From: Vicingus serpentipes | Lineage (GTDB): Bacteria > Bacteroidota > Bacteroidia > Flavobacteriales_E > Vicingaceae | Assembly: GCA_024103385.1 (NCBI GenBank) | Contig: JAGFIT010000025.1 | Span: 1-64,000 of the forward strand | Direction of reading: 5' to 3' | DNA: 64,000 nucleotides | Shown here: positions 15,173 to 31,809 of the stretch, piece by piece | How positions within the stretch are numbered: position 1 is the stretch's first letter | Layout of the letters: every line of letters begins with the position of its first letter | Notes under the pieces: model-generated | The model's database searches: none | What the model saw: the letters and a program-made list of their open reading frames with translations, nothing else | Told to the model about the DNA's origin: nothing | Translations under genes and position numbers: made by a program

Positions 15173-15535
15173 ATGCGTACTTCTTTAAGTATAATACTTA
15201 TAACAGCTTTTTTAATCAATGTTGCATATAGTGGTAGAGTACTAGCTAATAATCGTTGTGGTCAAATCGAATTTTCTTACAATCATCAAAATAATTCAAC
15301 TAAGGAGGCAATTAATAATTTAAAAAAAGAATTAAATTTAAATTTATTACTAGAAGAAACTTTCGAAGAAGAAACTGATGAAGACAATTTACATTTATTA
15401 TTTTTCCTTATTCCCTATTTAAATCTTGAAATTGAAACATTTTCAAGTAATTCAATTCATTACAGTGATTTTATCCGTTTTGTAGAAACAGCCCCTTTAT
15501 TCTTAAAGTTCTGCTGTATTAAAATTCCTTCATAA
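15173..15535 (+). CDS. Small secreted protein upstream of RND efflux operon
   Basis: 120 residues. Signal peptide at about 1-25 (IILITAFLINVAYSGRVLA), then a polar region with one early Cys, an acidic patch (LLEETFEEETDEDN, about residues 61-75) and a hydrophobic, aromatic C-terminus ending FLKFCCIKIPS. No family recognised. It lies 106 bp before the RND adaptor gene in the same direction, with two small hairpins in between, so it may be the first gene of the efflux transcript. A periplasmic or membrane-associated role in efflux or its sensing is inference only. Confidence 0.6.
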   Translation: MRTSLSIILITAFLINVAYSGRVLANNRCGQIEFSYNHQNNSTKEAINNLKKELNLNLLLEETFEEETDEDNLHLLFFLIPYLNLEIETFSSNSIHYSDFIRFVETAPLFLKFCCIKIPS

Positions 15536-15641: not shown

Positions 15642-16727
15642 ATGAAAAAAGTATTATTATCAATAAGCGTAATTGCTTTATTAATTAGTGTTGGGTGTAA
15701 TTCAAAACACAATAAAGAGCACCATGAGAACGCTAAGTTTTTAGTTACAACTCCATTAAAAAAAGACACTATAATTTCTAAAGACTATGTATGTCAAATT
15801 CGCTCTATTCAACACATTGAATTAAGAGCGCTTGAAAAAGGATATTTACAAAATATATATGTAGATGAAGGGCAATTTGTTAAAAAAGGTCAGCTATTGT
15901 TCCAAATTATGCCTGCTATGTACCAAGCTGAATTACAAAAAGCTCAAGCTGAAGCGAATTTTGCTGAAATAGAATACCAAAACACTAAAGTCTTAGCTGA
16001 TAGTAACATTGTATCTGCAAACGAATTGGCTTTAGCAAAAGCTAAACTACAAAAAGCTCAAGCTGAAATGTCAATGGCTCAAGTTCATTTAGATTTTACC
16101 TCCATTAAAGCTCCTTTTGATGGTATAGTTGGTCGATTTCATGTAAGGTTAGGGAGTCTTCTTGATGAGGGAGAACTATTAACAGAGCTTTCCGATAATA
16201 GTCAAATGTGGGTCTATTTTAATATGCCTGAGGCCGAATACTTAGATTATAAAACTGAAATAAAAAAAGACAGTTTACAGCAAGTATATCTTTTGATGGC
16301 AAACAATAAACCTTTTGAGCATCCAGGAGTAATCGAAACTATTGAATCTGATTTTAACAATGAAACAGGGAACATTGCTTTTAGAGCAAATTTTTCTAAT
16401 CCAAAAAAATTATTGCGACATGGAGAAACAGGAAGTATCCAAATTCCTGAGACACATAAAGGAGCATTAATTATTCCTCAAAAAGCCACCTTTGAAATTT
16501 TAGATTATCAGTATGTTTTTGTTGTCGATAAAAACAATATCATTCAATCAAGAAAAATTACTATTGAAGAAGAACTTCCACATCTTTATATAATAAAAGA
16601 TGGATTATCTGTAAATGACAAAATTTTGATTGAAGGTTTACGAAAAGTAAACAATAAAGATAAAATAGTTTATGATTTTGTGAAGCCAGAAGAAGTATTA
16701 TCACATTTAGATTTATACGCAGAATAA
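15642..16727 (+). CDS. RND efflux periplasmic adaptor (membrane fusion lipoprotein)
   Basis: 361 residues. Lipobox at LLISVGC (Cys about residue 19), so a lipoprotein. Beta-barrel and lipoyl halves with the typical hinge phrases LRALEKGYLQNIYVDEGQFV and VKKGQLLFQI, a short helical hairpin (about 95-150, AELQKAQAEANFAE, AKAKLQKAQAEMSMAQ), then KAPFDGIVGRFHVRLGSLL and a C-terminal membrane-proximal domain. It links the inner-membrane pump to the outer-membrane channel. Followed after 26 bp by the pump gene and then the channel gene: a complete AcrAB-TolC-type set. Substrates cannot be read from sequence; multidrug or detergent export is the usual role. Confidence 0.93.
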   Translation: MKKVLLSISVIALLISVGCNSKHNKEHHENAKFLVTTPLKKDTIISKDYVCQIRSIQHIELRALEKGYLQNIYVDEGQFVKKGQLLFQIMPAMYQAELQKAQAEANFAEIEYQNTKVLADSNIVSANELALAKAKLQKAQAEMSMAQVHLDFTSIKAPFDGIVGRFHVRLGSLLDEGELLTELSDNSQMWVYFNMPEAEYLDYKTEIKKDSLQQVYLLMANNKPFEHPGVIETIESDFNNETGNIAFRANFSNPKKLLRHGETGSIQIPETHKGALIIPQKATFEILDYQYVFVVDKNNIIQSRKITIEEELPHLYIIKDGLSVNDKILIEGLRKVNNKDKIVYDFVKPEEVLSHLDLYAE

Positions 16728-16753
16728 TATAAATACACTAAAAACTAAAAATT

Positions 16754-19700
16754 ATGTTTAGCAAAATTATACACCGCCCAGTGTTTGCGATAGTGATTTC
16801 TATTATTATCGTTTTTACAGGTACTTTGGCTATCAAACAGCTACCAATATCTCAATTCCCAGAAATAGCACCTACTACGGTAAATATTTTTATAGCTTAC
16901 CCTGGAGCTAGTGCAGACGTATTGGTTAAATCTACTTTAACCACTTTGGAAAATTCCATTAATGGTGTTCAAGACATGAGGTACATGACTACAGATGCCA
17001 CTAGTGCTGGAGAAGCAACACTCAGCATCATCTTTGAACCCGGAACAGATCCCAACCAAGCTGTAATAAGGGTAAAAACAAGGGTTGATCAGGTAATGCC
17101 TCTTTTACCAGAATTAGTACAACGTGAAGGCGTAATTATTACCCCTATGCGACCAAGTATGTTAATGAAAATAAACCTATTTAGTAAGAATAAAGATGCC
17201 GATGAAAAATTTCTTTACAACTATGCTTACACCAAAATGATTCCTGAAATACAGCGAATTAAAGGAGTTGCCAGAGCACAAATATTGGGCAGTAGAAAGT
17301 ATGCTATGCGAGTATGGTTAAACCCTGATCGTATGCGAGCTTATGAAATTTCCGTTGAAGAAGTAATGGATGCATTAGCAGAACAAAGTATTGTAGGACG
17401 ACCAGGAAGGTTAGGAAGAAGCTCTGGAATTGCTGCTCAATCATTGGAATATGTATTAACCTACAAAGGAAGATATAACAAAGAAAAAGAGTATGAGGAC
17501 ATTATCATTAGAGCCAATAAAGAAGGTGAAAGCATACACTTAAAAGATATTGCTAAAGTTGAGCTGGGAAGTGAATTCTTTGATATCTACTCTAATCTAG
17601 ATGGAGACCCATCTTCTGCAATTGTGCTAAAACAAACTTATGGAAGTAATGCCAGTGCAGTAATTGATAGAGTAAAAGAAAAATTAGAAGAAATGAAAGC
17701 TTCCTTTCCTCCCGGAATGGATTATAAATTTAGTTATGATGTTTCAAGATTTTTAGATGCTTCTATTGAGCAAGTAATCCATACCTTAAGAGATGCTTTT
17801 TTATTAGTAGCTTTAGTAGTATTTCTATTCTTAGGGGATTGGAGATCTACTTTAATCCCAATATTAGCCGTACCTGTTTCTTTGATTGGGGCATTTTTTG
17901 TGATACAAATGTTCGGGTTTTCTATCAACTTAATTACCTTATTTGCATTAGTGTTAGCAATTGGTATTGTTGTCGATGATGCTATTGTGGTAGTGGAAGC
18001 CGTCCATGCCAAAATAGAAGAAGAACATCTAACGCCTTATAATGCTGTAAAAAAAGTAATGGGTGAAATTAGTGGTGCTATCATCGCAATTACTTTGGTA
18101 ATGGTTTCTGTATTTGTCCCTATTGCATTTATGTCAGGACCCGTGGGAACTTTTTATCGGCAATTCTCTATCACCATGGCAAGTTCGATTGTCATTTCTG
18201 CTTTAATTGCACTTACATTAACGCCTGTTCTTTGTGCCATGATATTAAAAAACAACCATGGAAAGGAAAGAAAAAAATCACCAATTAACCAATTTATAGA
18301 TTGGTTTAATAGAAGGTTTGAAAAATTTACAGGGAGATATGTTAATCTACTAAAGTTAATTGTAAATAGAAAGGTCATCACTTTCGGTGTTTTAATTGTA
18401 TTTGGAATAGGAATTATTGGTATTAATAAAATTCTTCCAGCAGGTTTTGTTCCAGGAGAAGATCAAGGAACTATTTATGCAATAATCCAAACACCTCCAG
18501 GATCCACTCTAGAAAGAACTAATCAAGTAGCTGAAAAACTTCAAGAGCTATGTGAAGATGTGGAAGGAGTTGAATCTGTAGCCTCTTTTGCTGGGTATGA
18601 GATTATGACCGAAGGTAGAGGGTCAAACGCTGGTACTTGCTTAATTAACTTAAAAGATTGGTCAGAGCGCGAACATTCTGTACATGAAATTATGGAAGAG
18701 CTGGAAGAAAAATCTCAAAACCTTGGAGCAATTATCGAATATTTTGAACCGCCAGCAGTACCCGGTTTTGGTTCCTCAGGAGGTTTTTCATTACGTATGT
18801 TAGATAAAACAACCAATACCGATTATCATAAATTCGATAAAATAAACCAAGATTTTATGGCTGCATTAAAGAAACGTAAAGAGTTAGCTGGTTTATTCAC
18901 CTTTTTTGCGGCTAACTACCCACAATATGAATTAGAAATCGATAATAAACTAGCGATGCAGAAAGGTGTTTCTATTGGTAAAGCAATGGAAAACCTAAAC
19001 ATCTTGATTGGGAGTACTTACGAGCAAGGATTCATTAAGTTTGGACGTTTTTTCAAAGTGTATGTACAATCAGGCCCTGAATTCAGGAGGTTACCCTCTG
19101 ACATTTTAAAGTTGTTTGTAAAAAATGAAGAAGGAGAAATGGTGCCTTACTCTTCCTTTATGAAGATGGTAAAGAAGCAAGGTCCTAATGAAATTACTCG
19201 ATTTAACATGTACAACTCAGCATCTATTCGAGGACTTCCTGCAAAAGGCTACACTTCAGCTGATGCCATTCAAGCTATACGCGAAGTAGCAAAAGAATCT
19301 TTGCCAAAAGATTATGACATCGCTTGGGAAGGACTTTCTTATGATGAAGCTGGTCGTGGAAATGAAGCTTTATATATTTTTATTATCGTTCTCATTTTCG
19401 TGTACCTAGTATTAGCAGCTCAATACGAGAGTTTCTTACTCCCCTTAGCTGTGATATTATCTCTCCCTATTGGAATATTTGGTTCGTTTTTACTGCTCAA
19501 ATTCATGGGATTAGCAAACGATATTTATGCTCAAGTGGGTCTTATTATGTTAGTAGGATTACTCGGTAAAAATGCAGTATTAATTGTTGAGTTTGCTGTA
19601 CAAAAACACCGAGAAGGAGCTAGCATAATTGATGCGGCTATAGAAGGAGCAAGAGTAAGGTTTAGACCTATATTAATGACCTCTTTTGCCTTTATTGCTG

Positions 19701-19996
19701 GGTTAATTCCTTTAATAATTGCGACAGGTGCGGGCGCAATTGGAAACAGAACAATCGGAGCATCAGCAATGGGTGGAATGGTTTTAGGTTCTTTCGCAAT
19801 TATTATTATTCCTGGATTATATTATGTTTTTGCAAAAATGGCAGAAGGTCGTGACCTTATTAAAAACGAGGTTAGTGAACCGTTATCTGAAACTTATGTG
19901 AGATCCAGTGAAGAACATAGTGCAGCCCAAGAAAACCTGAAAGCAACTAATAGCCTATTAAGAAGATTGTTAAGTAGAAAAAGAAAGAAAAAGTAA
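16754..19996 (+). CDS. RND (HAE1-type) efflux pump
   Basis: 1080 residues, full length for AcrB/MexB relatives. Opens MFSKIIHRPVFAIVISI with TM1, followed by the family phrase QLPISQFPEIAPTTVNI. The proton-relay aspartates of TM4 are present in LAIGIVVDDAIVVVEAV, and the TM10 lysine in GLLGKNAVLIVEFA. Two large periplasmic loops (about 40-330 and 560-860) and twelve predicted TM segments. The C-terminal about 45 residues are charged and end RRLLSRKRKKK. It exchanges protons for exported compounds. Middle gene of the efflux operon, 26 bp after the adaptor and 17 bp before the channel gene. Confidence 0.95.
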   Translation: MFSKIIHRPVFAIVISIIIVFTGTLAIKQLPISQFPEIAPTTVNIFIAYPGASADVLVKSTLTTLENSINGVQDMRYMTTDATSAGEATLSIIFEPGTDPNQAVIRVKTRVDQVMPLLPELVQREGVIITPMRPSMLMKINLFSKNKDADEKFLYNYAYTKMIPEIQRIKGVARAQILGSRKYAMRVWLNPDRMRAYEISVEEVMDALAEQSIVGRPGRLGRSSGIAAQSLEYVLTYKGRYNKEKEYEDIIIRANKEGESIHLKDIAKVELGSEFFDIYSNLDGDPSSAIVLKQTYGSNASAVIDRVKEKLEEMKASFPPGMDYKFSYDVSRFLDASIEQVIHTLRDAFLLVALVVFLFLGDWRSTLIPILAVPVSLIGAFFVIQMFGFSINLITLFALVLAIGIVVDDAIVVVEAVHAKIEEEHLTPYNAVKKVMGEISGAIIAITLVMVSVFVPIAFMSGPVGTFYRQFSITMASSIVISALIALTLTPVLCAMILKNNHGKERKKSPINQFIDWFNRRFEKFTGRYVNLLKLIVNRKVITFGVLIVFGIGIIGINKILPAGFVPGEDQGTIYAIIQTPPGSTLERTNQVAEKLQELCEDVEGVESVASFAGYEIMTEGRGSNAGTCLINLKDWSEREHSVHEIMEELEEKSQNLGAIIEYFEPPAVPGFGSSGGFSLRMLDKTTNTDYHKFDKINQDFMAALKKRKELAGLFTFFAANYPQYELEIDNKLAMQKGVSIGKAMENLNILIGSTYEQGFIKFGRFFKVYVQSGPEFRRLPSDILKLFVKNEEGEMVPYSSFMKMVKKQGPNEITRFNMYNSASIRGLPAKGYTSADAIQAIREVAKESLPKDYDIAWEGLSYDEAGRGNEALYIFIIVLIFVYLVLAAQYESFLLPLAVILSLPIGIFGSFLLLKFMGLANDIYAQVGLIMLVGLLGKNAVLIVEFAVQKHREGASIIDAAIEGARVRFRPILMTSFAFIAGLIPLIIATGAGAIGNRTIGASAMGGMVLGSFAIIIIPGLYYVFAKMAEGRDLIKNEVSEPLSETYVRSSEEHSAAQENLKATNSLLRRLLSRKRKKK

Positions 19997-20013
19997 CTTA
20001 AAAAATCAGCAAA

Positions 20014-21447
20014 ATGTTAAAACGAACAATATATATATGCTTAGGAATTGCTTTTATATCGCTGACTTTTTCAGCCTGTAAAACACCTGGCTTAGTTAAC
20101 AGGACAGAAAACAAAACACTACCTGCGAGCTTCAGCAACTCACAGGATACAACCAATACTGCTAAGGTAAAATGGAAAGAATATTTTACTGACCCTTATC
20201 TAGTCGCATTGATTGATACCGCTCTAAATAATAACCAAGAATTAAACATTGTGTTACAAGAAATAGAAATTTCAAGAACAGAGATAAGAGCAAAAAAAGG
20301 GGAATATTTACCAAGCATTGGACTGCAAGGCGGTGCCGAAATAGAAAAAGTAGGCAGGTACACTAGTCAAGGTGCAAATGATGCAAATACAGATATCAGA
20401 TCTGGAGAAGAGTTTCCAGAACCCTTACCAAACTTTATGCTTGGCGCTTATGCAAATTGGGAAATAGATGTTTGGAAAAAACTGCGTAACGGTAAAAAAG
20501 CGGCTGTAAACAGGTATTTATCAAGTGTAGAAGGAAAAAACTTTATGGTAACTACATTGATTGCAGAAATTGCTAATTCCTATTATGAATTGTTGGCTCT
20601 CGATAATCAATTAGAAATTGTAAATAAGAATATCGAAATACAAAGCAATGCATTAAGTATTGTAAAACTTCAAAAAGAAGCTGCTATTGTTAATGAGCTA
20701 GCTGTAAAAAGATTTGAAGCTCAACTATTAAATACAAAAAGTCTTCAGTTCGATATTTTACAAAACATTGTAGAAGTAGAAAATCGCATCAATTTTTTAG
20801 TCGGACGTTTTCCTCAAACCATAACAAGAAATGCTCAAAATTTTACCAATTTAGTGCCCAATACTATTTATGCTGGCATTCCATCACAAGTATTGGATAA
20901 CCGTCCAGACATTAAACAAGCTGAAATGGAACTAGAAGCTGCCAAACTGGATGTGAAATCAGCAAAAGCGCATTTTTATCCTTCATTGGGTATTTCAGCA
21001 GGGGTTGGATTTCAAGCATTTAAACCAGGTCTATTGTTGGAAACTCCAGAATCTATGATTTATTCAATAATAGGAGATTTAACTGCTCCACTAATTAATA
21101 GAAACGCCATAAAAGCAACTTATTACAGTGCCAGTTTCAAACAAATTCAGGCAGTTTATAATTATGAGCGAACCATTTTAAACGCTTACATCGAAATAAC
21201 CAACCAACTTTCTAAAATTAATAATTTAGAAAAAAGCTATGAACTAAAATCACAAGAAGTAGCAGCATTAACCGAATCGATTACTATCTCCAACAACCTT
21301 TTTAAGTCGGCAAGAGCAGATTATATGGAAGTATTATTAACCCAGCGAGATGCACTAGAATCTAAATTTGAATTAATAGAAACTAAAAAACAACAAATGA
21401 ATGCTATGGTAAATATTTATCAAGCACTTGGTGGGGGATGGAATTAA
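20014..21447 (+). CDS. TolC/NodT-type outer-membrane efflux lipoprotein
   Basis: 477 residues with a lipobox ISLTFSAC (Cys about residue 21), as in OprM-like channels. Two repeats of the outer-membrane efflux protein domain: DTALNNNQELNIVLQEIE and ANWEIDVWKKLRNGKKAA in the first, PSQVLDNRPDIKQAEMELEA and HFYPSLGIS in the second. Coiled-coil segments alternate with short barrel strands. It forms the exit duct of the tripartite pump encoded by the two preceding genes. A large hairpin lies 70 bp downstream. Confidence 0.93.
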   Translation: MLKRTIYICLGIAFISLTFSACKTPGLVNRTENKTLPASFSNSQDTTNTAKVKWKEYFTDPYLVALIDTALNNNQELNIVLQEIEISRTEIRAKKGEYLPSIGLQGGAEIEKVGRYTSQGANDANTDIRSGEEFPEPLPNFMLGAYANWEIDVWKKLRNGKKAAVNRYLSSVEGKNFMVTTLIAEIANSYYELLALDNQLEIVNKNIEIQSNALSIVKLQKEAAIVNELAVKRFEAQLLNTKSLQFDILQNIVEVENRINFLVGRFPQTITRNAQNFTNLVPNTIYAGIPSQVLDNRPDIKQAEMELEAAKLDVKSAKAHFYPSLGISAGVGFQAFKPGLLLETPESMIYSIIGDLTAPLINRNAIKATYYSASFKQIQAVYNYERTILNAYIEITNQLSKINNLEKSYELKSQEVAALTESITISNNLFKSARADYMEVLLTQRDALESKFELIETKKQQMNAMVNIYQALGGGWN

Positions 21448-22908: not shown

Positions 22909-22947
22909 AAAATAACGCTATGAGTTTTTTATGGTATCTTCGTTAAT

Positions 22948-23478
22948 GTGAAAAAAGTAATTAGTATATCACTTTTAATCTGTTTGGTTCTCCCCTTTAT
23001 AGGAACAGTTAGTTGGTTGCAGTACCATAAAAAAGTTGTACGTAGGCAAATTAAACATCAGATTATTGCTGGCATTGATAAAAGTGAATTAGTATTACTT
23101 TCTTTTACAAAAGAAGAAGCTGAACAACTAAAATGGAAGCACTCTAAAGAATTTGGATTTAATGGAAGCATGTATGATGTTGTTGAAGCTGATACCACAG
23201 AAAACACTATTAATTACTGGTGTTGGTGGGATTACAAAGAAACCAACCTCAACAAAGAATTGTACAGTTTGTTGGCAGACTTTTTAGGAAATGACCCAAA
23301 AAATAAAGATGCCAAAACGCGATTTGCGAACTTTTGTCAGTCACTTTTCTACTCTACCAACAAACCTTGGGAAGCAATAAACATAGATTCTTACGAAGAA
23401 AAAAATAGTTATTACATTTCAGAATATACTTCATTATATTTTCCACCACCTACCCCTCCACCAAAAAACTATTCCTAA
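22948..23478 (+). CDS. Small membrane-anchored protein before TonB receptor, copy 1
   Basis: 176 residues from a GTG start (no in-frame ATG near; the paralogue at 28788 begins at the same aligned residue). One N-terminal membrane span (residues 5-24) followed by basic residues, then a periplasmic region with DKSELVLL, W.HSKEF, MYDVVEADTTE, a striking YWCWWD motif, TRFANFCQSLF and a proline-rich tail FPPPTPPP. Roughly half the residues match the second copy. Each copy sits directly upstream of a hairpin and a TonB-dependent receptor gene, so a role in iron or heme uptake or its regulation is likely by context. No family name is known to me. Confidence 0.75.
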   Translation: MKKVISISLLICLVLPFIGTVSWLQYHKKVVRRQIKHQIIAGIDKSELVLLSFTKEEAEQLKWKHSKEFGFNGSMYDVVEADTTENTINYWCWWDYKETNLNKELYSLLADFLGNDPKNKDAKTRFANFCQSLFYSTNKPWEAINIDSYEEKNSYYISEYTSLYFPPPTPPPKNYS

Positions 23479-23492
23479 ATTTTCTTATCCAG

Positions 23493-23561
23493 TTCTTTCA
23501 TCTTATAAGATGAAAGAATTATAGTATCTATTAATGCTCATTTCAAATAAGTTGAAATGAG
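23493..23561 (+). promoter_or_regulatory. Two consecutive perfect hairpins before TonB receptor gene
   Basis: A 26-base perfect palindrome spans 23493-23518 (arms TTCTTTCATCTTA). It is followed by CTCATTTCAA (23537-23546), loop ATAAG, TTGAAATGAG (23552-23561). Neither is followed by a clear T-run. They fill the 110-bp gap between the small gene and the receptor gene and may be an operator, a terminator/attenuator or an mRNA-stability element. Confidence 0.5.
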
Positions 23562-23588
23562 ACTATTCTATTATTAAAAAAATATAAA

Positions 23589-25985
23589 ATGAAAACATAT
23601 TTTATGTTGTCGGCATTTTTTATGCTGTCAATTAATGCGTGGTGTCAACAACAATTAAAAGGAAAAGTATTTGATGCCGAAACAAATAGCCCACTTATTG
23701 GAGCAACTATAAAAACTTCTGATAAAAAAGTTACGGTAACCGATAATAATGGTGCTTTTAGTATTAACTGTAGTGAGTCTCTTGAATTAAGTATTTCATA
23801 TATTGGTTACACTACCCAAAAACAAGTAATACAAAACTGTAATGAAGAAGTGACTATTAATTTATCCATTGTTAAAAATGAATTAAACGAAGTTGAAATA
23901 ACTGCTACTTCAACCAAAGAAAAAATGCAGTTACAACAACCTAAAGCTATTGTTAAGCTCGACAATACAGAGTTAAAAAGAGGAACAGGTTTATATTTAG
24001 ATGATGCTATTAATGCCAACGTACCAGGTGTTTTTATGCAACGTAGAACTGCCTCTGCTGGTCAGCAATTTAATATTAGAGGCTATGGAAATGGTCTTGG
24101 TTTTAAAGGTGCAAACAATAACTTTGATGGACAGGGTTCAAAAGTTTATTTAAACGGTATTGCAATTACTGATGCTGAAGGCATTACCTTAATGGATGAT
24201 ATCGATTTTGGATCTATTGATAAGGTTGAAATAAGTAAAGGGCCTTCAGGAACTCTTTATGGTTTAGCAATTGCCGGTGTAGTTAATTTACAAACCCAAA
24301 AAGCAGAAAAAAATAAAACAAGCATTGGGCAAGATTTTATGGCAGGAAGTTATGGACTGCTAAGAACTACAACTCGTTTATCTATTGGCGGAGAAAAATC
24401 TTCTTTATTAATTAACTATGGCCGTCAACAATTCGATGGATTTATGGTTCATACAAAATCTCACAAAGATTTTGTTAATTTAATGGGTGATTTTGTACTC
24501 AATGAAAAACAAAGTATTACTACTTATGTTGGCTACAGCGATAGTTATGATGAGCGAAATGGAGAATTAACTGATGTACAATACGATTCATTAGATTATT
24601 CGGGGAATACAAGATACATCGACAATAATGCACACTCTGCAGTAAAAACTTTTAGAGCAGGTGTTGGACATACTTACCACTTCAATAAAAACATAGCTAA
24701 TACCACGTCATTTTTTGGATCATCCCAAAACATGGATAACAGCTCTGCCGGAGGATGGAGTGATAAAGCCCCATTAAACTATGGTTTACGTTCTACTTTT
24801 GATATGGATTTTAACTTATCAGATGGTATTAAGTTAAGTAGTATTACCGGTATCGAATTGCAAAAAATGAATACTATAGCTAATAGTTATAGCATGATTC
24901 CGGATAGTACTAACTTAAATGGATACAATATCATAGGTTCTCTTAGAAGCATTGCTGCAACTTCAAGTGCAACAGCCTCTTACTTTACACAATGGACCTT
25001 AGGTTTACCTAAAAACTTTAGTATTACAGCTGGTGTTGGTATCAGTAACATGACACTTAGTTTACAAGATAGATTATGGGCAAATACCAATAATCATCCT
25101 GGCAACACCACTCCACAGGAATATAGAAAAACATATAGCAACTTAGTATCTCCAACATTTTCTATCAATAAAAAGATAAGCGAAGTAGCTTCTATTTATG
25201 GTACTTATTCTGTTGGATACAAAGCTCCTGTAAGTTCTCAATTTTATATTCCAACAACAGGAGAAGTAAATGAAGGTTTAGTCCCTGAAAAAGGAACACA
25301 AATAGAAGTGGGTACAAAAGGTAGCTTCTTAGAAAATCGTTTGTATTATTCTATCGCTGTATTTAATGCCAAATTTGAGGATAAAATGACAGCTGTATCT
25401 GTTCAAAACCCTCAAAATACAGTGACTTTATACTCCTATGTTGCTAATGGTGGGTCTTTAAACAATAATGGATTAGAAGTTTTGGTAAAATATGAATTGA
25501 TGAAGAGCAACAAAGGATTTATTAAATCATTAAGTCCCTTTGCAAACTTTACATTTTCAGATTTTAAGTATGAGAATTTCCAATATCAAACCAAAGGAAA
25601 AAACTCACTTAACCAAGATAGTTTAATTGTTAATGATTATAGTGGGAACCAAGTTGCAGGAGTTCCTCCAATTGTATTTAATGTTGGTTTAGATATAGAT
25701 ACAAAAATTGGAATCTATGGTAATATCAACTACAACTACCGTGATGCAATGTACTATACATCAGATGAATTAAATCAAACTTCGAGTTATGGTTTAGTTA
25801 ATGCTAAACTGGGTTTTAGAAAAACCATTAAACATTTTGGCTTTGATATTTATGGAGGTGCTAGTAACATTACTGGAACTCAATATTACTATATGGTATT
25901 TTTAAATCAGTTGCCTGATGCATACATACCGGCTCCTTACGAAATAAATTATTTCGGTGGAGTTAACCTTAAATATTTGTTTTAG
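23589..25985 (+). CDS. TonB-dependent receptor (siderophore/metal type)
   Basis: 798 residues, signal peptide ending NAWCQ. An N-terminal carboxypeptidase-regulatory-like domain (LKGKVFDAETNSPLIGATI, about 20-100), then the plug (DDAINANVPGVFMQRR, IRGYG, VYLNGI, VEISKGPSGTLYGLAIAGVVNL) and a 22-strand barrel ending in an aromatic residue (LKYLF). The barrel section GYKAPVSSQF with VPEKGTQIEVG resembles ferric-siderophore receptors more than classical heme receptors. It imports its ligand across the outer membrane using TonB energy. Followed by a terminator and the ABC importer genes, so the ligand is probably iron-containing; exact ligand unknown. Confidence 0.9.
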   Translation: MKTYFMLSAFFMLSINAWCQQQLKGKVFDAETNSPLIGATIKTSDKKVTVTDNNGAFSINCSESLELSISYIGYTTQKQVIQNCNEEVTINLSIVKNELNEVEITATSTKEKMQLQQPKAIVKLDNTELKRGTGLYLDDAINANVPGVFMQRRTASAGQQFNIRGYGNGLGFKGANNNFDGQGSKVYLNGIAITDAEGITLMDDIDFGSIDKVEISKGPSGTLYGLAIAGVVNLQTQKAEKNKTSIGQDFMAGSYGLLRTTTRLSIGGEKSSLLINYGRQQFDGFMVHTKSHKDFVNLMGDFVLNEKQSITTYVGYSDSYDERNGELTDVQYDSLDYSGNTRYIDNNAHSAVKTFRAGVGHTYHFNKNIANTTSFFGSSQNMDNSSAGGWSDKAPLNYGLRSTFDMDFNLSDGIKLSSITGIELQKMNTIANSYSMIPDSTNLNGYNIIGSLRSIAATSSATASYFTQWTLGLPKNFSITAGVGISNMTLSLQDRLWANTNNHPGNTTPQEYRKTYSNLVSPTFSINKKISEVASIYGTYSVGYKAPVSSQFYIPTTGEVNEGLVPEKGTQIEVGTKGSFLENRLYYSIAVFNAKFEDKMTAVSVQNPQNTVTLYSYVANGGSLNNNGLEVLVKYELMKSNKGFIKSLSPFANFTFSDFKYENFQYQTKGKNSLNQDSLIVNDYSGNQVAGVPPIVFNVGLDIDTKIGIYGNINYNYRDAMYYTSDELNQTSSYGLVNAKLGFRKTIKHFGFDIYGGASNITGTQYYYMVFLNQLPDAYIPAPYEINYFGGVNLKYLF

Positions 25986-25994
25986 TTCAACAAT

Positions 25995-26031
25995 AAAGTC
26001 GGAGGAAATATGAAAAATTCCTCCGACTTTT
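25995..26031 (+). terminator. Strong hairpin between receptor and ABC importer genes
   Basis: AAAGTCGGAGGAA (25995-26007) pairs perfectly with TTCCTCCGACTTT (26018-26030) around a 10-base loop, with TT following. It starts 9 bp after the receptor stop and ends 13 bp before the next start codon. It can terminate or attenuate transcription so that the receptor is made in excess of the importer. Confidence 0.75.
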
Positions 26032-26043
26032 AAAATATATCTT

Positions 26044-26913
26044 ATGAAAAAAATAATCCTTTTATCATTCATTTCCGCTATATGTTTTGGTTGTGGAAGA
26101 TTTGACAATAAAGATGAAAAACAAGAAAATAAAGAACGAATAGTTTTAATTTCTAAACAATACTGTGAAATAATACATGCCTTAAATGCAGAAGAAAATG
26201 TAGTAGCTGTAGATATTTCAAGCGTATATCCACCAAAAGTAAAAGAATTACCTACTGTCGGTTATCACAGAGCACTAAGTTTAGAAGGCTTATTAGCAGC
26301 TAAACCAACCTTAATTATGCACAATGGCTTAAAATCGCTGGGACCAGATCATATTGTAAAACAATTACAAGATTTACAGATTCCTATGAAAGAATTTGAT
26401 ACTAAAAGTGAAGACATTGAAAGTACAAAAGCACTTATTCAGGAAATGGGAAATTATTTCAAAAAAACAGCTAAAGCTGATTCATTGTGCACAAAACTTG
26501 ATGCTGACATGAAACTTGCCATGGAAAATGTAACTCAATATGTTGATACCCCAAAAGTATTAGTGATTCATTTTGGTAGAGCATCTAATGTATATTTAGT
26601 AATGACCAAAAAAGGAACAGCAGCAAAAATGGTAGAATGGGCTGGTGGAACAATGGCTGTTACTGATACTTCTGGTATGAGACACCTATCAGCAGAAGTA
26701 GTTACACAATACGATCCTGATGTTATTCTGTTAACTGATTTTGGTTATGACCGTCTAGGTTCTAACGAAAAAATACAAGAGTTACCAGGTGTATCTAGCA
26801 CAACTGCTGCAAGAAATAACAAAATTTACAGAGTTAATGAATGTGACTTGGTTTACTTAGGTCCAAGAACTGGAGAAATAACCTTAGAACTTCAAAAACT
26901 GATACATCAATAA
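26044..26913 (+). CDS. hmuT: Heme-type ABC transporter substrate-binding protein
   Basis: 289 residues with an N-terminal signal and a Cys at about residue 17 (CFGCG), probably a lipoprotein though the lipobox is imperfect. The fold is that of TroA/BtuF-type binding proteins: RIVLISKQYCEIIHAL, then SSVYPPKVKELPTVGYHRALSLEGLLAAKPTL, where LPxVGYxRxLSxEGxLxxxP is characteristic of the HmuT hemin-binding branch. C-terminal TQYDPDVILLTDFGYDRLG and LPGVSSTTAARNNKIYRV. It would carry heme (or a related tetrapyrrole/siderophore) in the periplasm to the permease. The stop overlaps the permease start by one base (TAATG). Confidence 0.82.
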   Translation: MKKIILLSFISAICFGCGRFDNKDEKQENKERIVLISKQYCEIIHALNAEENVVAVDISSVYPPKVKELPTVGYHRALSLEGLLAAKPTLIMHNGLKSLGPDHIVKQLQDLQIPMKEFDTKSEDIESTKALIQEMGNYFKKTAKADSLCTKLDADMKLAMENVTQYVDTPKVLVIHFGRASNVYLVMTKKGTAAKMVEWAGGTMAVTDTSGMRHLSAEVVTQYDPDVILLTDFGYDRLGSNEKIQELPGVSSTTAARNNKIYRVNECDLVYLGPRTGEITLELQKLIHQ

Positions 26914-27926
26914 TGAAAAAAATCTATTTGATATTAGTTTTATTAACCATTGTTGCGGTTATTATTTCTATCCGTTATGGAGCTGTCGACTTATCATTGA
27001 AGGAAATTTTAAGTGCACTAAACAAATGGTTTACAGATAACCCAGACCTAACACTAAACGAACGGATTTTACTAGAAATAAGATTACCAAGAGCCTTATT
27101 AACATTAATTGTAGGAAGCAGTTTAGCCGTTGGAGGAGTTTTAATGCAAGGCTTATTTTTAAATCCAATTGTAGAACCTGGTTTAATAGGCACATCGAGT
27201 GGAGCAGCCTTTGGTGCTGCTCTTTACTTTGTGTTAGGAGCAACCTTTAGCTTTAATACCGGTGAATGGACCTTACCTATTGCAGCTTGTATTGGAGCCA
27301 TGCTTTCTACATTTCTGGTATTTATGTTTGCCGAATCTAAAAAGCAAAATAAAAGTTCCATTACCAGTTTATTATTAATTGGTATTGCCATCAACGCTTT
27401 ATTTTTAAGTGGGGTAGGTTTTCTAGCCTACATTGCCCGAGATCCACAAGCCAGATCTATTACCTTTTGGAATTTAGGAACACTTTCAGGAAGCAATTGG
27501 CATGCTGTAATTATAGTAGGTATTACTTCGGTAATTTGTATTTTAATTGGATTAAGATATGCCAAACAACTTAATGCATTAATGCTTGGGACTTCCGAAG
27601 CAAAAAATTTAGGTGTAAATGTAAAAGCATTAAAAATTAAAGTATTAATTGTAAATGTAATATTAGTAGCAGTTGCCACTTCTTTTACAGGTATTATTGG
27701 CTTTGTAGGTTTAGTGGTCCCTCATTTACTTCGTATATTAAAAGGTTCAGATAACCGTTACCTTATAATTGGAAGTGTCTTAATGGGTGGTCTTTTACTA
27801 AGTGTTGCCGACATCTTAGCTCGTTTACTTTTAGCTCCGGCAGAACTACCTATTGGAATTGTAACCACTGCTGTTGGTGCTCCTGTTTTTATTTATTTAT
27901 TACGCAAAAACGAATATTATTTTTAA
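26913..27926 (+). CDS. hmuU: FecCD-family ABC permease, heme type
   Basis: 337 residues with about nine to ten membrane spans. Family phrases are LRLPRALLTLIVGSSLAVGG-like text (residues about 55-75), MQGLFLNPIVEPGLIGTSSGAAFGAAL, and IIGFVGLVVPHLLR in the ATPase-contacting loop (about 262-275). BtuC/HmuU-type permease for heme, B12 or ferric siderophores; context with the HmuT-like protein favours heme. Translationally coupled to the genes on both sides. Confidence 0.87.
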   Translation: MKKIYLILVLLTIVAVIISIRYGAVDLSLKEILSALNKWFTDNPDLTLNERILLEIRLPRALLTLIVGSSLAVGGVLMQGLFLNPIVEPGLIGTSSGAAFGAALYFVLGATFSFNTGEWTLPIAACIGAMLSTFLVFMFAESKKQNKSSITSLLLIGIAINALFLSGVGFLAYIARDPQARSITFWNLGTLSGSNWHAVIIVGITSVICILIGLRYAKQLNALMLGTSEAKNLGVNVKALKIKVLIVNVILVAVATSFTGIIGFVGLVVPHLLRILKGSDNRYLIIGSVLMGGLLLSVADILARLLLAPAELPIGIVTTAVGAPVFIYLLRKNEYYF

Positions 27927-27927
27927 G

Positions 27928-28704
27928 ATGTTAAAAGCCGAAAACATATCCTATCAAATAGATAATAAAACCCTTCTTAACAATATTTCTATTGAATTTA
28001 ACACAGGCGAAACAACTTTAATTGTAGGGGCTAATGGCGCAGGAAAATCTACCCTAATAAAAGTGTTAAGTAAAGAATTAAACCCAACTGCCGGCACAAT
28101 TACTTTTAACAAACAACCTATCCAGTCATTTAAAACAAGTGAATTAGCTAAAGTAAGAGCTGTTTTATCTCAAAGTAATGAACTTGCTTTTCCGTTATTA
28201 GTAGAAGAAGTTATTATGATGGGACGTTATCCACATTTTGATAATAAACCTGCTGCAACTGATATTGCTATTTGCAAGCAAGCAATGGAACTATTTGATA
28301 TAACTAAATTTAAGGATAGAAATTTTTTAACGTTGAGTGGTGGAGAAAAACAGCGTGTGCATTTTGCAAGAATTGTAGCCCAAATATGGAACAATAACAC
28401 AACTGAAACTAAATTGTTATTTTTAGATGAACCCCTCACCTTTTTAGACATTCGTTTTCAGTTAGACTTTATGAATATTGTAAAAGAATTTATCAAACAA
28501 CAAAACCTAATTATTATAGGTGTATTACACGATTTAAACTTAGCCATTAAATATGCGGATAAGATTTTGTTATTGGACAATGGAAACCTTTTAAAGTATG
28601 GAACTCCAAAAGAAGTACTCACATCAGAAAATATTGAAAAAACTTTTAAAATAACTCCTCATCTATATCAAAAAAATAAAGAAGAGACTTACTTAATTTT
28701 CTAA
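27928..28704 (+). CDS. hmuV: Heme-type ABC transporter ATP-binding protein
   Basis: 258 residues from ATG 27928, the start that places MLKAENISYQ as usual for HmuV; an in-frame upstream extension to 27874 lies inside the permease gene and encodes an unlikely hydrophobic tail. Walker A GANGAGKST (about 35-43), signature LSGGEKQRVHFAR (about 135-147), Walker B LLFLDEPLTFLD (about 161-172) and the switch His in GVLHDLNLA. It energises the permease encoded one base upstream. After the gene a weak CG-anchored inverted repeat precedes the second small-protein gene. Confidence 0.9.
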   Translation: MLKAENISYQIDNKTLLNNISIEFNTGETTLIVGANGAGKSTLIKVLSKELNPTAGTITFNKQPIQSFKTSELAKVRAVLSQSNELAFPLLVEEVIMMGRYPHFDNKPAATDIAICKQAMELFDITKFKDRNFLTLSGGEKQRVHFARIVAQIWNNNTTETKLLFLDEPLTFLDIRFQLDFMNIVKEFIKQQNLIIIGVLHDLNLAIKYADKILLLDNGNLLKYGTPKEVLTSENIEKTFKITPHLYQKNKEETYLIF

Positions 28705-28787
28705 TAATAACCGTTTAATTAATCGGTATTGATGATGTAACAATAAAATTGTTACTTTGCGTTGCACTTTTATTAGCAATTTTAAGT

Positions 28788-29318
28788 TTGAAAAAACTCA
28801 TCAGCATATTTCTATTGATTTGTATCATTTTTCCATTTGTGGGAAGTGTAGGTTGGTTAACCTATCAAAAACAAAAAGTTAAAAAACAAATTAAGCGTGA
28901 GATTATTGCTAGTATTGATAAAAGTGAATTGGTACAATTAACTTTTACAAAAGATCAATTAGAAACAGAATTAGAATGGGAACACTCCAAAGAATTTGAG
29001 TACAACCACCAAATGTACGATATTGTTGAAGCTGACACTACCGAGAATATTATTACCTATTGGTGTTGGTGGGATACTGAAGAAACAGAGTTAAATCAAA
29101 AACTAAAAAAAACCTTAGCTAATTTTTTAAACAACGATACCAAAAACAAAGAAACCAAAACGCGTTTTGCTAACTTTTACCAATCACTTTTTCATTCTAA
29201 AACAGAAGCTTGGAAAGCTCTTAATAAACAAGTAAGCAAAACCAACAACTTTGCTTATATTTTTAATTACTCTTCATTACATTTTCCACCAACTACTCCA
29301 CCACCAAATTATAGTTAA
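28788..29318 (+). CDS. Small membrane-anchored protein before TonB receptor, copy 2
   Basis: 176 residues from a TTG start at 28788, chosen because it aligns residue for residue with the GTG start of copy 1 and gives the same length; a longer frame opens at 28749 but its extra codons overlap a TACTTTG promoter-like sequence. One N-terminal span (LISIFLLICIIFPFVGSVGW), then DKSELVQL, W.HSKEF, MYDIVEADTTE, YWCWWD, TRFANFYQSLF and a tail FPPTTPPP. Paralogue of 22948-23478. It lies between the ABC importer and the heme-type receptor gene. Both copies use rare start codons. Function unknown; iron/heme uptake by context. Confidence 0.75.
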   Translation: MKKLISIFLLICIIFPFVGSVGWLTYQKQKVKKQIKREIIASIDKSELVQLTFTKDQLETELEWEHSKEFEYNHQMYDIVEADTTENIITYWCWWDTEETELNQKLKKTLANFLNNDTKNKETKTRFANFYQSLFHSKTEAWKALNKQVSKTNNFAYIFNYSSLHFPPTTPPPNYS

Positions 29319-29340
29319 ACATTTTTACAAACCATACCTG

Positions 29341-29367
29341 TTCGTTTTTAAACAAAGTAAAAACGAA
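29341..29367 (+). promoter_or_regulatory. Hairpin before heme-type receptor gene
   Basis: TTCGTTTTTA (29341-29350), loop AACAAAG, TAAAAACGAA (29358-29367): a perfect 10-bp stem. It occupies the same place relative to copy 2 of the small gene and its receptor as the hairpins at 23493-23561 do for copy 1, though the sequence differs. Confidence 0.5.
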
Positions 29368-29400
29368 TGGAAAACAATTGTTTAACCTATAATTTACACA

Positions 29401-31809
29401 ATGAAAAAATTGATTTTATTATGGTTAACACTTGCTATGTATTGCATAAGTAATGCACAAGTAGTAACCATAAAAGATAAAGAAACAGCACAACCATTAG
29501 AATTGGTTACGCTGATAAGTGAAGAACCCAAAGCGTTTGCCACAACAAATGCTAAAGGACAAGCAGATATTTCTAAATTTTCGGGAATAGAAAAAATTGA
29601 AATTCGCTTATTGGGCTATTCACCTATAACAAAAAGCTATGCTGAAATTGAAGCCAATAACTTTATTGTTGAGCTAGAAATTTTTGGCGTTCAAATGGAT
29701 GAAGTTATTGTTTCTGGAACTCGATGGAGCCAGAGCACCAAAGACCTTACCGCAAAAGTAACAAGCATTAATGCTAAAAATGTAGCCTTACAAAACCCAC
29801 AAACCGCTGCCGATTTATTGGGTACTTCTGATGAAGTATTTATACAAAAAAGTCAGCAAGGAGGAGGAAGTCCTATGATTAGAGGTTTTGCTACTAACCG
29901 CTTGCTTTATACCGTTGATGGTATAAGAATGAACACAGCTATTTTTAGAGCAGGAAACATTCAAAATGTCATCTCCTTAGATCCATTTGCAACAGAAAAT
30001 ACCGAAGTACTTTTTGGTCCAAGCTCTGTAATTTATGGAAGTGATGCCATAGGAGGAGTAATGAGTTTTAAAACACTAAGCCCTCAACTTTCATTAACCG
30101 AAGGCGAAGAATTAATTACAGGTAAAGCCATAACCCGTTACTCATCTGCCAACAATGAAAAAACAGCACATTTTGACATTAACATTGGATGGAAAAAATG
30201 GGCTATAGTTTCCAGTATTTCTTCGAATAATTATGATAACCTTAAAATGGGAACTCATGGCCCTAAGGAATATTTACGACCGTTTTACGTGCAACAGCAA
30301 AATGGTTTTGATGCAATTATTACAAATGAAGACCCTTTAATCCAAAACCCATCTGGTTATACTCAGCTCAATATGATGCAAAAATTGAGGTTTAAACCTA
30401 ATGAAAAATGGGATATTGAATACGGTTTTCATTATTCTGAAACATCAAATTATTCACGTTACGATAGACATATTCGTTATAAAAACGGATTGCCTCGTTA
30501 TGGCGAATGGTACTATGGCCCGCAAATATGGTTAATGAACAATTTAAACATCACTAATAAAAGCGAAAACTTTTTGTACGACCAAATGACTGTTCGTTTA
30601 GCACAACAGTACTTTGAAGAAAGTAGAGTTAGCAGAGACATCAACAAATCTGACCGAGAAAATCGAGTAGAAAAAGTAGATGCCTACTCTGTAAATATTG
30701 ATTTCAATAAAAACATTGGTAAAAAAAATGAATTGTTCTATGGTTTAGAAGCCGTACAAAACGAAGTAAATTCTATTGGAACCAACGATGATATCTCTAC
30801 AGGAGAAACCGTTGAAGGTCCTGCCCGATATCCACAATCTACTTGGGCATCTTATGCCGCTTACCTCAACACACAAATACACTTAGGCCAAAAAGTAATG
30901 ATGCAAGCAGGAGTTCGATACAATATGTTTCTGTTAGATGCTCAATTTGATACTACTTTTTATCCATTTCCTTTTACTGAAGCAAACCTAAGTAATGCTG
31001 CCACAACCGGTAGTTTAGGGTTTAGCTACCGACCAACAGAAAAATGGGCATTCAGTACCAATGCTTCCACAGGTTTTCGTTCTCCGAATGTAGATGATAT
31101 TGGTAAAGTGTTTGATTCCGAACCAGGTGCTGTAGTCGTTCCTAATCCGGATTTAGAAGCTGAATATGCTTACAACATTGATTTCGGTATTGCTAAAGTT
31201 TTCGGTAATTCGGTAAAAGTTGATGCAACTGCTTTTTATACCTTATTAGATAATGCTTTAGTTAGACGAGATTTTACCTTAAACGGGCAAGACAGTATAA
31301 TTTATGATGGCGATTTAAGTCAGGTTCAAGCTATACAAAATGCTGCTGTAGCAAATGTTTATGGAATACAGGCAGGTTTTGAAATTAAATTAGCTTCGGG
31401 CTTTAGTTTTTCTTCTCGCTTTAATTATCAGGTTGGTGAAGAAGAGTTAGACGATGGTACAACTAGTCCATCTCGACACGCTGCTCCTTGGTTTGGAACA
31501 GCACGTTTAACATATAGCAAAAACAAAGTAAATGTACAATTTTATGGCGTTTATAGCGATAAAAAAGTTTTTGATGATTTACCAGAAAGTGAAAAATCAA
31601 AAACAGAAATTTATGCCATCGATAAAAATGGTGACCCATACTCTCCTTCATGGTATACACTTAATTTTAAAGCCATGTATAAAATATCCGACCACTTTAC
31701 CGCTAATGCCGGTTTAGAAAATATTACCGACCAGCGTTACAGACCTTATAGCTCAGGTATTGTTGCTCCCGGCAGAAATTTCATTATTTCGCTACGAGCT
31801 AATTTTTAG
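29401..31809 (+). CDS. TonB-dependent receptor, heme/hemoglobin type
   Basis: 802 residues, signal peptide ending SNAQ. A short regulatory-like domain (about 20-100), then the plug: DEVIVSGTRW (TonB-box region), MIRGFATNRLLYTVDGIRMN, TEVLFGPSSVIYGSDAIGGV. In the barrel, FRSPNVDDIGKVFD and VPNPDLEAEYAYN correspond to the FRAP and NPNL boxes of heme receptors such as HmuR. Ends in SLRANF with the C-terminal aromatic. It should take up heme or hemoproteins and pass heme to the HmuTUV-type importer encoded upstream. A strong terminator follows. Confidence 0.9.
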   Translation: MKKLILLWLTLAMYCISNAQVVTIKDKETAQPLELVTLISEEPKAFATTNAKGQADISKFSGIEKIEIRLLGYSPITKSYAEIEANNFIVELEIFGVQMDEVIVSGTRWSQSTKDLTAKVTSINAKNVALQNPQTAADLLGTSDEVFIQKSQQGGGSPMIRGFATNRLLYTVDGIRMNTAIFRAGNIQNVISLDPFATENTEVLFGPSSVIYGSDAIGGVMSFKTLSPQLSLTEGEELITGKAITRYSSANNEKTAHFDINIGWKKWAIVSSISSNNYDNLKMGTHGPKEYLRPFYVQQQNGFDAIITNEDPLIQNPSGYTQLNMMQKLRFKPNEKWDIEYGFHYSETSNYSRYDRHIRYKNGLPRYGEWYYGPQIWLMNNLNITNKSENFLYDQMTVRLAQQYFEESRVSRDINKSDRENRVEKVDAYSVNIDFNKNIGKKNELFYGLEAVQNEVNSIGTNDDISTGETVEGPARYPQSTWASYAAYLNTQIHLGQKVMMQAGVRYNMFLLDAQFDTTFYPFPFTEANLSNAATTGSLGFSYRPTEKWAFSTNASTGFRSPNVDDIGKVFDSEPGAVVVPNPDLEAEYAYNIDFGIAKVFGNSVKVDATAFYTLLDNALVRRDFTLNGQDSIIYDGDLSQVQAIQNAAVANVYGIQAGFEIKLASGFSFSSRFNYQVGEEELDDGTTSPSRHAAPWFGTARLTYSKNKVNVQFYGVYSDKKVFDDLPESEKSKTEIYAIDKNGDPYSPSWYTLNFKAMYKISDHFTANAGLENITDQRYRPYSSGIVAPGRNFIISLRANF

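Follow-up and report, generated by a model that had tools for sequence, protein, structure and literature searches.

A family of small proline-tailed proteins encoded directly upstream of TonB-dependent receptors in Bacteroidota, proposed as leader ORFs

In Bordetella pertussis the DUF2946 leader protein CruR is encoded before bfrG, a gene for a TonB-dependent receptor (TBDR). A RAPP motif ends three residues before the CruR C terminus, and the spacing between CxxC and RAPP is held to 1–2 residues; five additional residues strongly reduce the copper response. Copper binding frees the arrested ribosome and so controls transcription into bfrG (PMC9426467), and later work demonstrated this arrest in vitro (PMC12992588). 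Control of cutO by CutF relies on a proline-rich end together with a stem-loop; a survey of CutF-like proteins, restricted to those shorter than 150 aa that have a cleavable signal peptide, yielded 29 clusters (PMC9973294). A leader of the LPPP type arrests B. subtilis ribosomes both in vitro and in vivo (PMC10987492).

Two small genes upstream of receptors in Vicingus serpentipes

The window analyzed is a 64,000-nt stretch of Vicingus serpentipes (contig JAGFIT010000025.1, positions 1 to 64,000, forward strand). It contains two modules, each consisting of a small ORF, a short gap (110 nt in module 1 and 82 nt in module 2) and a TBDR gene (Table 1). An ABC importer sits between the modules and belongs to module 1. 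The original prediction had described two paralogous 176-residue ORFs with GTG and TTG starts that share YWCWWD, MYDxVEADTTE and a proline-rich tail, bracket a haem-type importer, belong to no recognised family and each directly precede a TBDR of a different type. All of this is borne out. Both ORFs are present with these starts, are approximately 61% identical and have the three sequence elements in common, and no Pfam or NCBIfam model matches the small proteins. The two receptors match weakly, in a single segment (22% identity over 296 aa, E=5e-4), and the importer comprises a BtuF/IsdE-like protein, a FecCD permease and a haem-type ATPase. The second small gene contains another in-frame TTG at 28749, 13 codons upstream of 28788; we placed the start at 28788 because alignment to a third copy supports this position.

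Table 1. Features of the two modules, with positions in the window
Feature	Position	Strand	Evidence
Promoter -7-like TATCTTCG just ahead of the copy 1 GTG (prediction)	22935..22942	+	Sequence; family-wide enrichment
Small protein copy 1, 176 aa, GTG start (proposed leader)	22948..23478	+	ORF reading; family HMM and tally
YWCWWD motif, copy 1; Asp invariant family-wide, Cys not	23215..23232	+	Sequence; cluster conservation
PPPTPPP tail, copy 1, 4 residues before stop (proposed arrest site)	23443..23463	+	Sequence; family tail tally
Perfect inverted repeat, gap between copy 1 and receptor 1	23493..23518	.	Repeat search
Second perfect inverted repeat before receptor 1	23537..23561	.	Repeat search
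TonB-dependent receptor 1, type C; weak PqqU/siderophore similarity	23589..25985	+	Pfam/NCBIfam; receptor typing
Periplasmic binding lipoprotein, BtuF/IsdE-like	26044..26913	+	Pfam/NCBIfam; behind 7/9 type C receptors
FecCD/BtuC-type permease	26913..27926	+	Pfam/NCBIfam
Haem-type ABC ATPase, above NF010068 cut-off	27928..28704	+	NCBIfam
Perfect palindrome GTAACAAT-AAA-ATTGTTAC, overlapping the module 2 promoter-like site	28737..28755	.	Sequence; genome scan
Promoter -7-like TTACTTTG ahead of copy 2 (prediction)	28752..28759	+	Sequence; family-wide enrichment
Small protein copy 2, 176 aa, TTG start (proposed leader)	28788..29318	+	ORF reading
YWCWWD motif, copy 2	29058..29075	+	Sequence; cluster conservation
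PPTTPPP tail, copy 2, 3 residues before stop (proposed arrest site)	29286..29306	+	Sequence; family tail tally
Perfect inverted repeat, gap between copy 2 and receptor 2	29341..29367	.	Repeat search
TonB-dependent receptor 2, type A; haem/haemoglobin-like, below TIGR01786 cut-off	29401..31809	+	Pfam/NCBIfam; receptor typing

The third copy lies outside the window on contig C31 of the same genome, likewise ahead of a TBDR. In this region (L034 7420-13653), genes for an Rrf2-type regulator and cytochrome-like proteins lie close to the small gene and its receptor. Within the window, a secreted-type ORF of 120 aa (15173-15535, ending FLKFCCIKIPS) lies ahead of an RND efflux operon (15642-21447). 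It was considered as a further leader candidate and rejected, as it has no relatives in 60 related genomes.

A family paired with changing receptors

We searched 120 relatives, 395 genomes of the phylum and the GTDB contig set, with proximity to a TBDR never used as a criterion, and identified 165 distinct family members in Bacteroidia and Ignavibacteria. Where enough downstream sequence is available (161 members), the next gene on the same strand encodes a TBDR in 157 cases, of which 150 were recognized by phmmer, 6 by Pfam and 1 by near-identity to those. The gap between the two genes is typically 66–122 nt. At the same loci a TBDR follows 77 of 78 family genes but only 1 of the 696 remaining genes, a pairing that far exceeds chance. 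As had been predicted, the relatives are not found mostly away from TBDR genes, and the small proteins represent a family without a name that is widespread in the phylum Bacteroidota. One exceptional member is followed by a transposase-like gene. At three further loci (L199, L202 and L203) an approximately 310-aa secreted or outer-membrane-like protein with no Pfam match stands in place of the TBDR, and at L202 a PAP2-domain protein is next.

The partner receptors are diverse. Among 122 that are full-length, 94 are haem/haemoglobin-like, 16 are PqqU-like and 9 are of the type of window receptor 1 (type C), with the remainder being singletons that resemble ZnuD or haem receptors. The importer found in module 1 also lies behind 7 of the 9 type C receptors. 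When partner types are mapped onto a maximum-likelihood tree of the small proteins, there are at least 14 switches of type, and three receptor types occur within one supported 4-row clade made up of the two window copies, the third copy and one relative. Furthermore, when close type A receptors are counted with rows L247 and L253 left out, the small gene precedes 21 and is absent before 7 of the 28. The small gene therefore comes with a receptor gene of whichever type, and receptors can do without the small gene. A PepSY_TM protein is encoded after some type A receptors (L098 10097-10666 and four loci like it), an arrangement also seen in the CruR-bfrG operon.

These observations bear on the idea that the protein, once complete, serves as an accessory in the inner membrane or periplasm and cooperates with the receptor or TonB during uptake, for example in handling haem or metal, with the proline tail as a contact site. 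Strict gene pairing is what such an accessory would lead one to expect. However, closely related small proteins serve unrelated receptor types, and same-type receptors occur without the small gene. We consider this explanation unlikely, and the anatomy of the protein provides arguments on both sides.

Protein anatomy and expression signals

Family members are 174–177 aa in length (interquartile range). The AlphaFold model shows an N-terminal hydrophobic helix (approximately residues 2–42), then a small alpha/beta core, and finally a tail predicted with low confidence; pLDDT is 78.6 and pTM 0.48 overall, with pLDDT of approximately 82–96 over residues 41–100. Foldseek with this model returned no match at E up to 0.001, VIA gave no Z of 5 or more, and the best E in a sequence search of solved structures was 0.2 or worse. 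Positive charges follow the hydrophobic helix, and the delta-charge is ambiguous with respect to topology or a cleavable signal peptide. Identity between the two window copies at codon positions 1, 2 and 3 is 0.69, 0.83 and 0.52, and this conservation of the core at the protein level, together with its confident prediction, is the other point in favor of an accessory.

No variation is seen across 119 clusters (below 60% identity) at the glutamate of KEF, the aspartate of WWD and two adjacent C-terminal prolines. The YWCWWD cysteine is found in 84% of distinct clusters and is replaced by valine in 10%, which rules it out as a universal haem or metal ligand. The mature part contains 0–2 cysteines in most members, and no metal motif is invariant among the clusters. 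Handling of haem or metal at the aromatic/Cys motif, as suggested originally, thus finds no support family-wide, the cysteine not being among the invariant residues.

Adjacent prolines within the last 15 residues occur in 161 of 163 members, compared with 8 of 1095 other frames, and 141 members have three in a row. The last pair mostly ends two to five residues before the stop, with a mode of three; the usual form is PPxPPP, and the residue before the last pair is itself proline in 100 of 117 clusters. Mean pairwise identity is lowest in the linker (14%), compared with 37% in the core and 57% in the tail. The length from the aspartate of WWD to the last proline is 72–79 residues in 90% of clusters and 76–77 in most. 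A tail held at a set place before the stop codon and joined by a linker of arbitrary sequence but constant length suggests a ruler measured along the ribosome tunnel rather than an ordinary binding tail, and the same geometry argues against the accessory explanation.

The start codons point the same way. Near the predicted start only GTG or TTG is available in 110 of 162 members, and weak starts of this kind are unexpected for an accessory; among the remaining long genes in the window, ATG is the usual start. Bacteroidota promoters follow the pattern TTG ... TAnnTTTG. Sites resembling this consensus at 8 or more of 9 positions occur in 42% of the regions upstream of the small gene, in 10% of the gaps between small gene and TBDR, and in 22% for other genes. 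Promoter-like sites are thus placed before the small gene and are rare in the gap, consistent with an operon that the small gene heads. The palindrome at the module 2 promoter-like site is the sole copy in the genome within one mismatch and is a possible operator.

A candidate leader ORF and its alternatives

The window family resembles CruR in several respects. Both are small, N-terminally hydrophobic proteins whose genes open an operon and immediately precede a TBDR gene, and both have a proline motif approximately three residues before the C terminus and a constant spacing between sensor and prolines. However, CruR has 145 aa, CxxC, RAPP and a response to copper, whereas the window family is longer, has neither CxxC nor RAPP, and has a larger conserved core. 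With hmmscan at E up to 1, PF11162 (DUF2946) matches none of the three copies, nor anything else in the genome. Lacking the profile match and both motifs, the family is not part of DUF2946. The traits shared with CutF-like proteins, which are often beside metal genes and many of which are in Bacteroidota, are the adjacent prolines within the last 15 residues and a same-strand downstream gene within 1000 nt. However, CutF needs its stem-loop, and in the window family hairpins are found in the window modules without family-wide support. At 174–177 aa the family would have been filtered out by the length limit of the CutF-like survey.

Two further families of Bacteroidota, HYC_CC_PP (NF047658) and DUF6660 (PF20365), also comprise small N-terminally hydrophobic proteins with C-terminal adjacent prolines, encoded approximately 90–100 nt before RND efflux or TBDR genes. 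Their Cys-rich motifs are absent from the window family, the comparison with DUF6660 being by inspection of motif and position only. At E up to 1, NF047658 has no hit in either window copy, and hhalign against HYC_CC_PP aligns the first 21 residues only (probability 21.5%). With no profile match, no HYC or CC motifs and an alignment confined to the N terminus, membership in HYC_CC_PP is ruled out. The same genome does contain an HYC_CC_PP gene directly before a CusA-like RND operon (L229 6591-7055, contig C76), which is a distinct leader in this organism, probably of copper type.

The general anatomy of arrest peptides, consisting of an N-terminal targeting signal, a C-terminal arrest-like motif and a gene downstream, is also found in the window family, as a likeness of anatomy only. 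SecM, VemP, MifM, uA_LPPP and uDF_NAP-stop likewise combine an N-terminal localisation signal with a C-terminal arrest motif, which in uA_LPPP also includes consecutive prolines; however, they precede secA, secDF or yidC and monitor protein export rather than serving nutrient receptors (PMC10987492). Since the tested defining motifs of both DUF2946 and HYC_CC_PP are lacking, we propose from sequence that these genes form a new, previously unrecognised leader-ORF family. It is possible that they have been listed, unnamed, in supplements or preprints.

Given these features, the small gene is probably a cis-acting leader ORF in which nascent-chain arrest at the C-terminal prolines controls the receptor gene. 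Of the two roles suggested originally, uptake accessory or regulator, regulation is favored, and specifically in cis, because the gene is always upstream, the invariant prolines lie near the stop, the spacing is fixed, the start is weak, the promoter-like site is upstream and the receptor type is often exchanged; the accessory role is less favored. The small gene would be transcribed from the promoter ahead of it and translated at a low level from its weak start codon, with the hydrophobic helix targeting the nascent chain to the membrane. The core domain (approximately residues 45–106) would act as the sensor. Ribosomes would slow or arrest at the prolines two to five residues before the stop, and the persistence of the arrest would depend on the state of the sensor, which at this point would be some 70–75 residues from the peptidyl-transferase center, having just emerged from the tunnel or translocon. 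By pulling on the chain, a sensor that has folded or bound its ligand may free the ribosome. Whether the ribosome is in place or released would then decide either read-in of RNA polymerase to the receptor gene, as for CruR, or translation of the receptor, as for CutF. From the receptor types we infer that the signal is metal- or haem-related, and by analogy with CruR, stalling when supply is short would be expected to leave the receptor switched on.

Some considerations count against this reading. Stretches of polyproline are normally rescued by EF-P. The CutF proline motif alone is not a strong staller (PMC9973294). The family has no invariant metal motif to account for what would be sensed, its charge pattern is ambiguous as to membrane topology, and the gaps show no more structure than controls do. 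Three members precede a different outer-membrane-like gene. Additionally, given a well-conserved core with a predicted fold, the complete protein might act in trans as well.

A trans-acting membrane regulator, that is, a signal transducer for the receptor operon, would suit a small membrane-anchored domain encoded always directly before the receptor gene. However, the small proteins match no DNA-binding, anti-sigma or kinase model in Pfam or NCBIfam, the three-copy genome keeps one small gene per receptor with none shared, and the placement and spacing of the prolines are left unexplained; we regard this as very unlikely. The perfect hairpins noted originally before the receptors are real in both window modules and would suit an RNA element in which they serve as attenuators or parts of a riboswitch and the small ORF is incidental, but this is the least probable of the explanations, as selection acts on the protein, Rfam has no match and the folding of the gaps is no stronger than in control intergenic regions (median z-score -1.79 family-wide compared with -1.71). 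The hairpins are therefore neither a family trait nor a common regulatory element, and no RNA switch downstream of the small gene was identified.

Returning to the leader ORF as the preferred reading, a more far-reaching version can be put forward tentatively. The family may consist of phylum-wide nascent-chain sensors that use a folded domain, and not a Cys/His metal motif, to read a nutrient signal that is not copper but iron, haem or receptor status, and that have been recombined repeatedly, as a ready-made cassette, before different TBDR genes. More generally, a leader of the kind proposed would take nascent-chain sensing beyond copper and protein export, and would offer a natural cassette for reporters. 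Bacteroidota have very many TBDRs and the switching of individual ones is mostly unexplained; a leader with invariant prolines ahead of many of them would provide a direct mechanism for their control.
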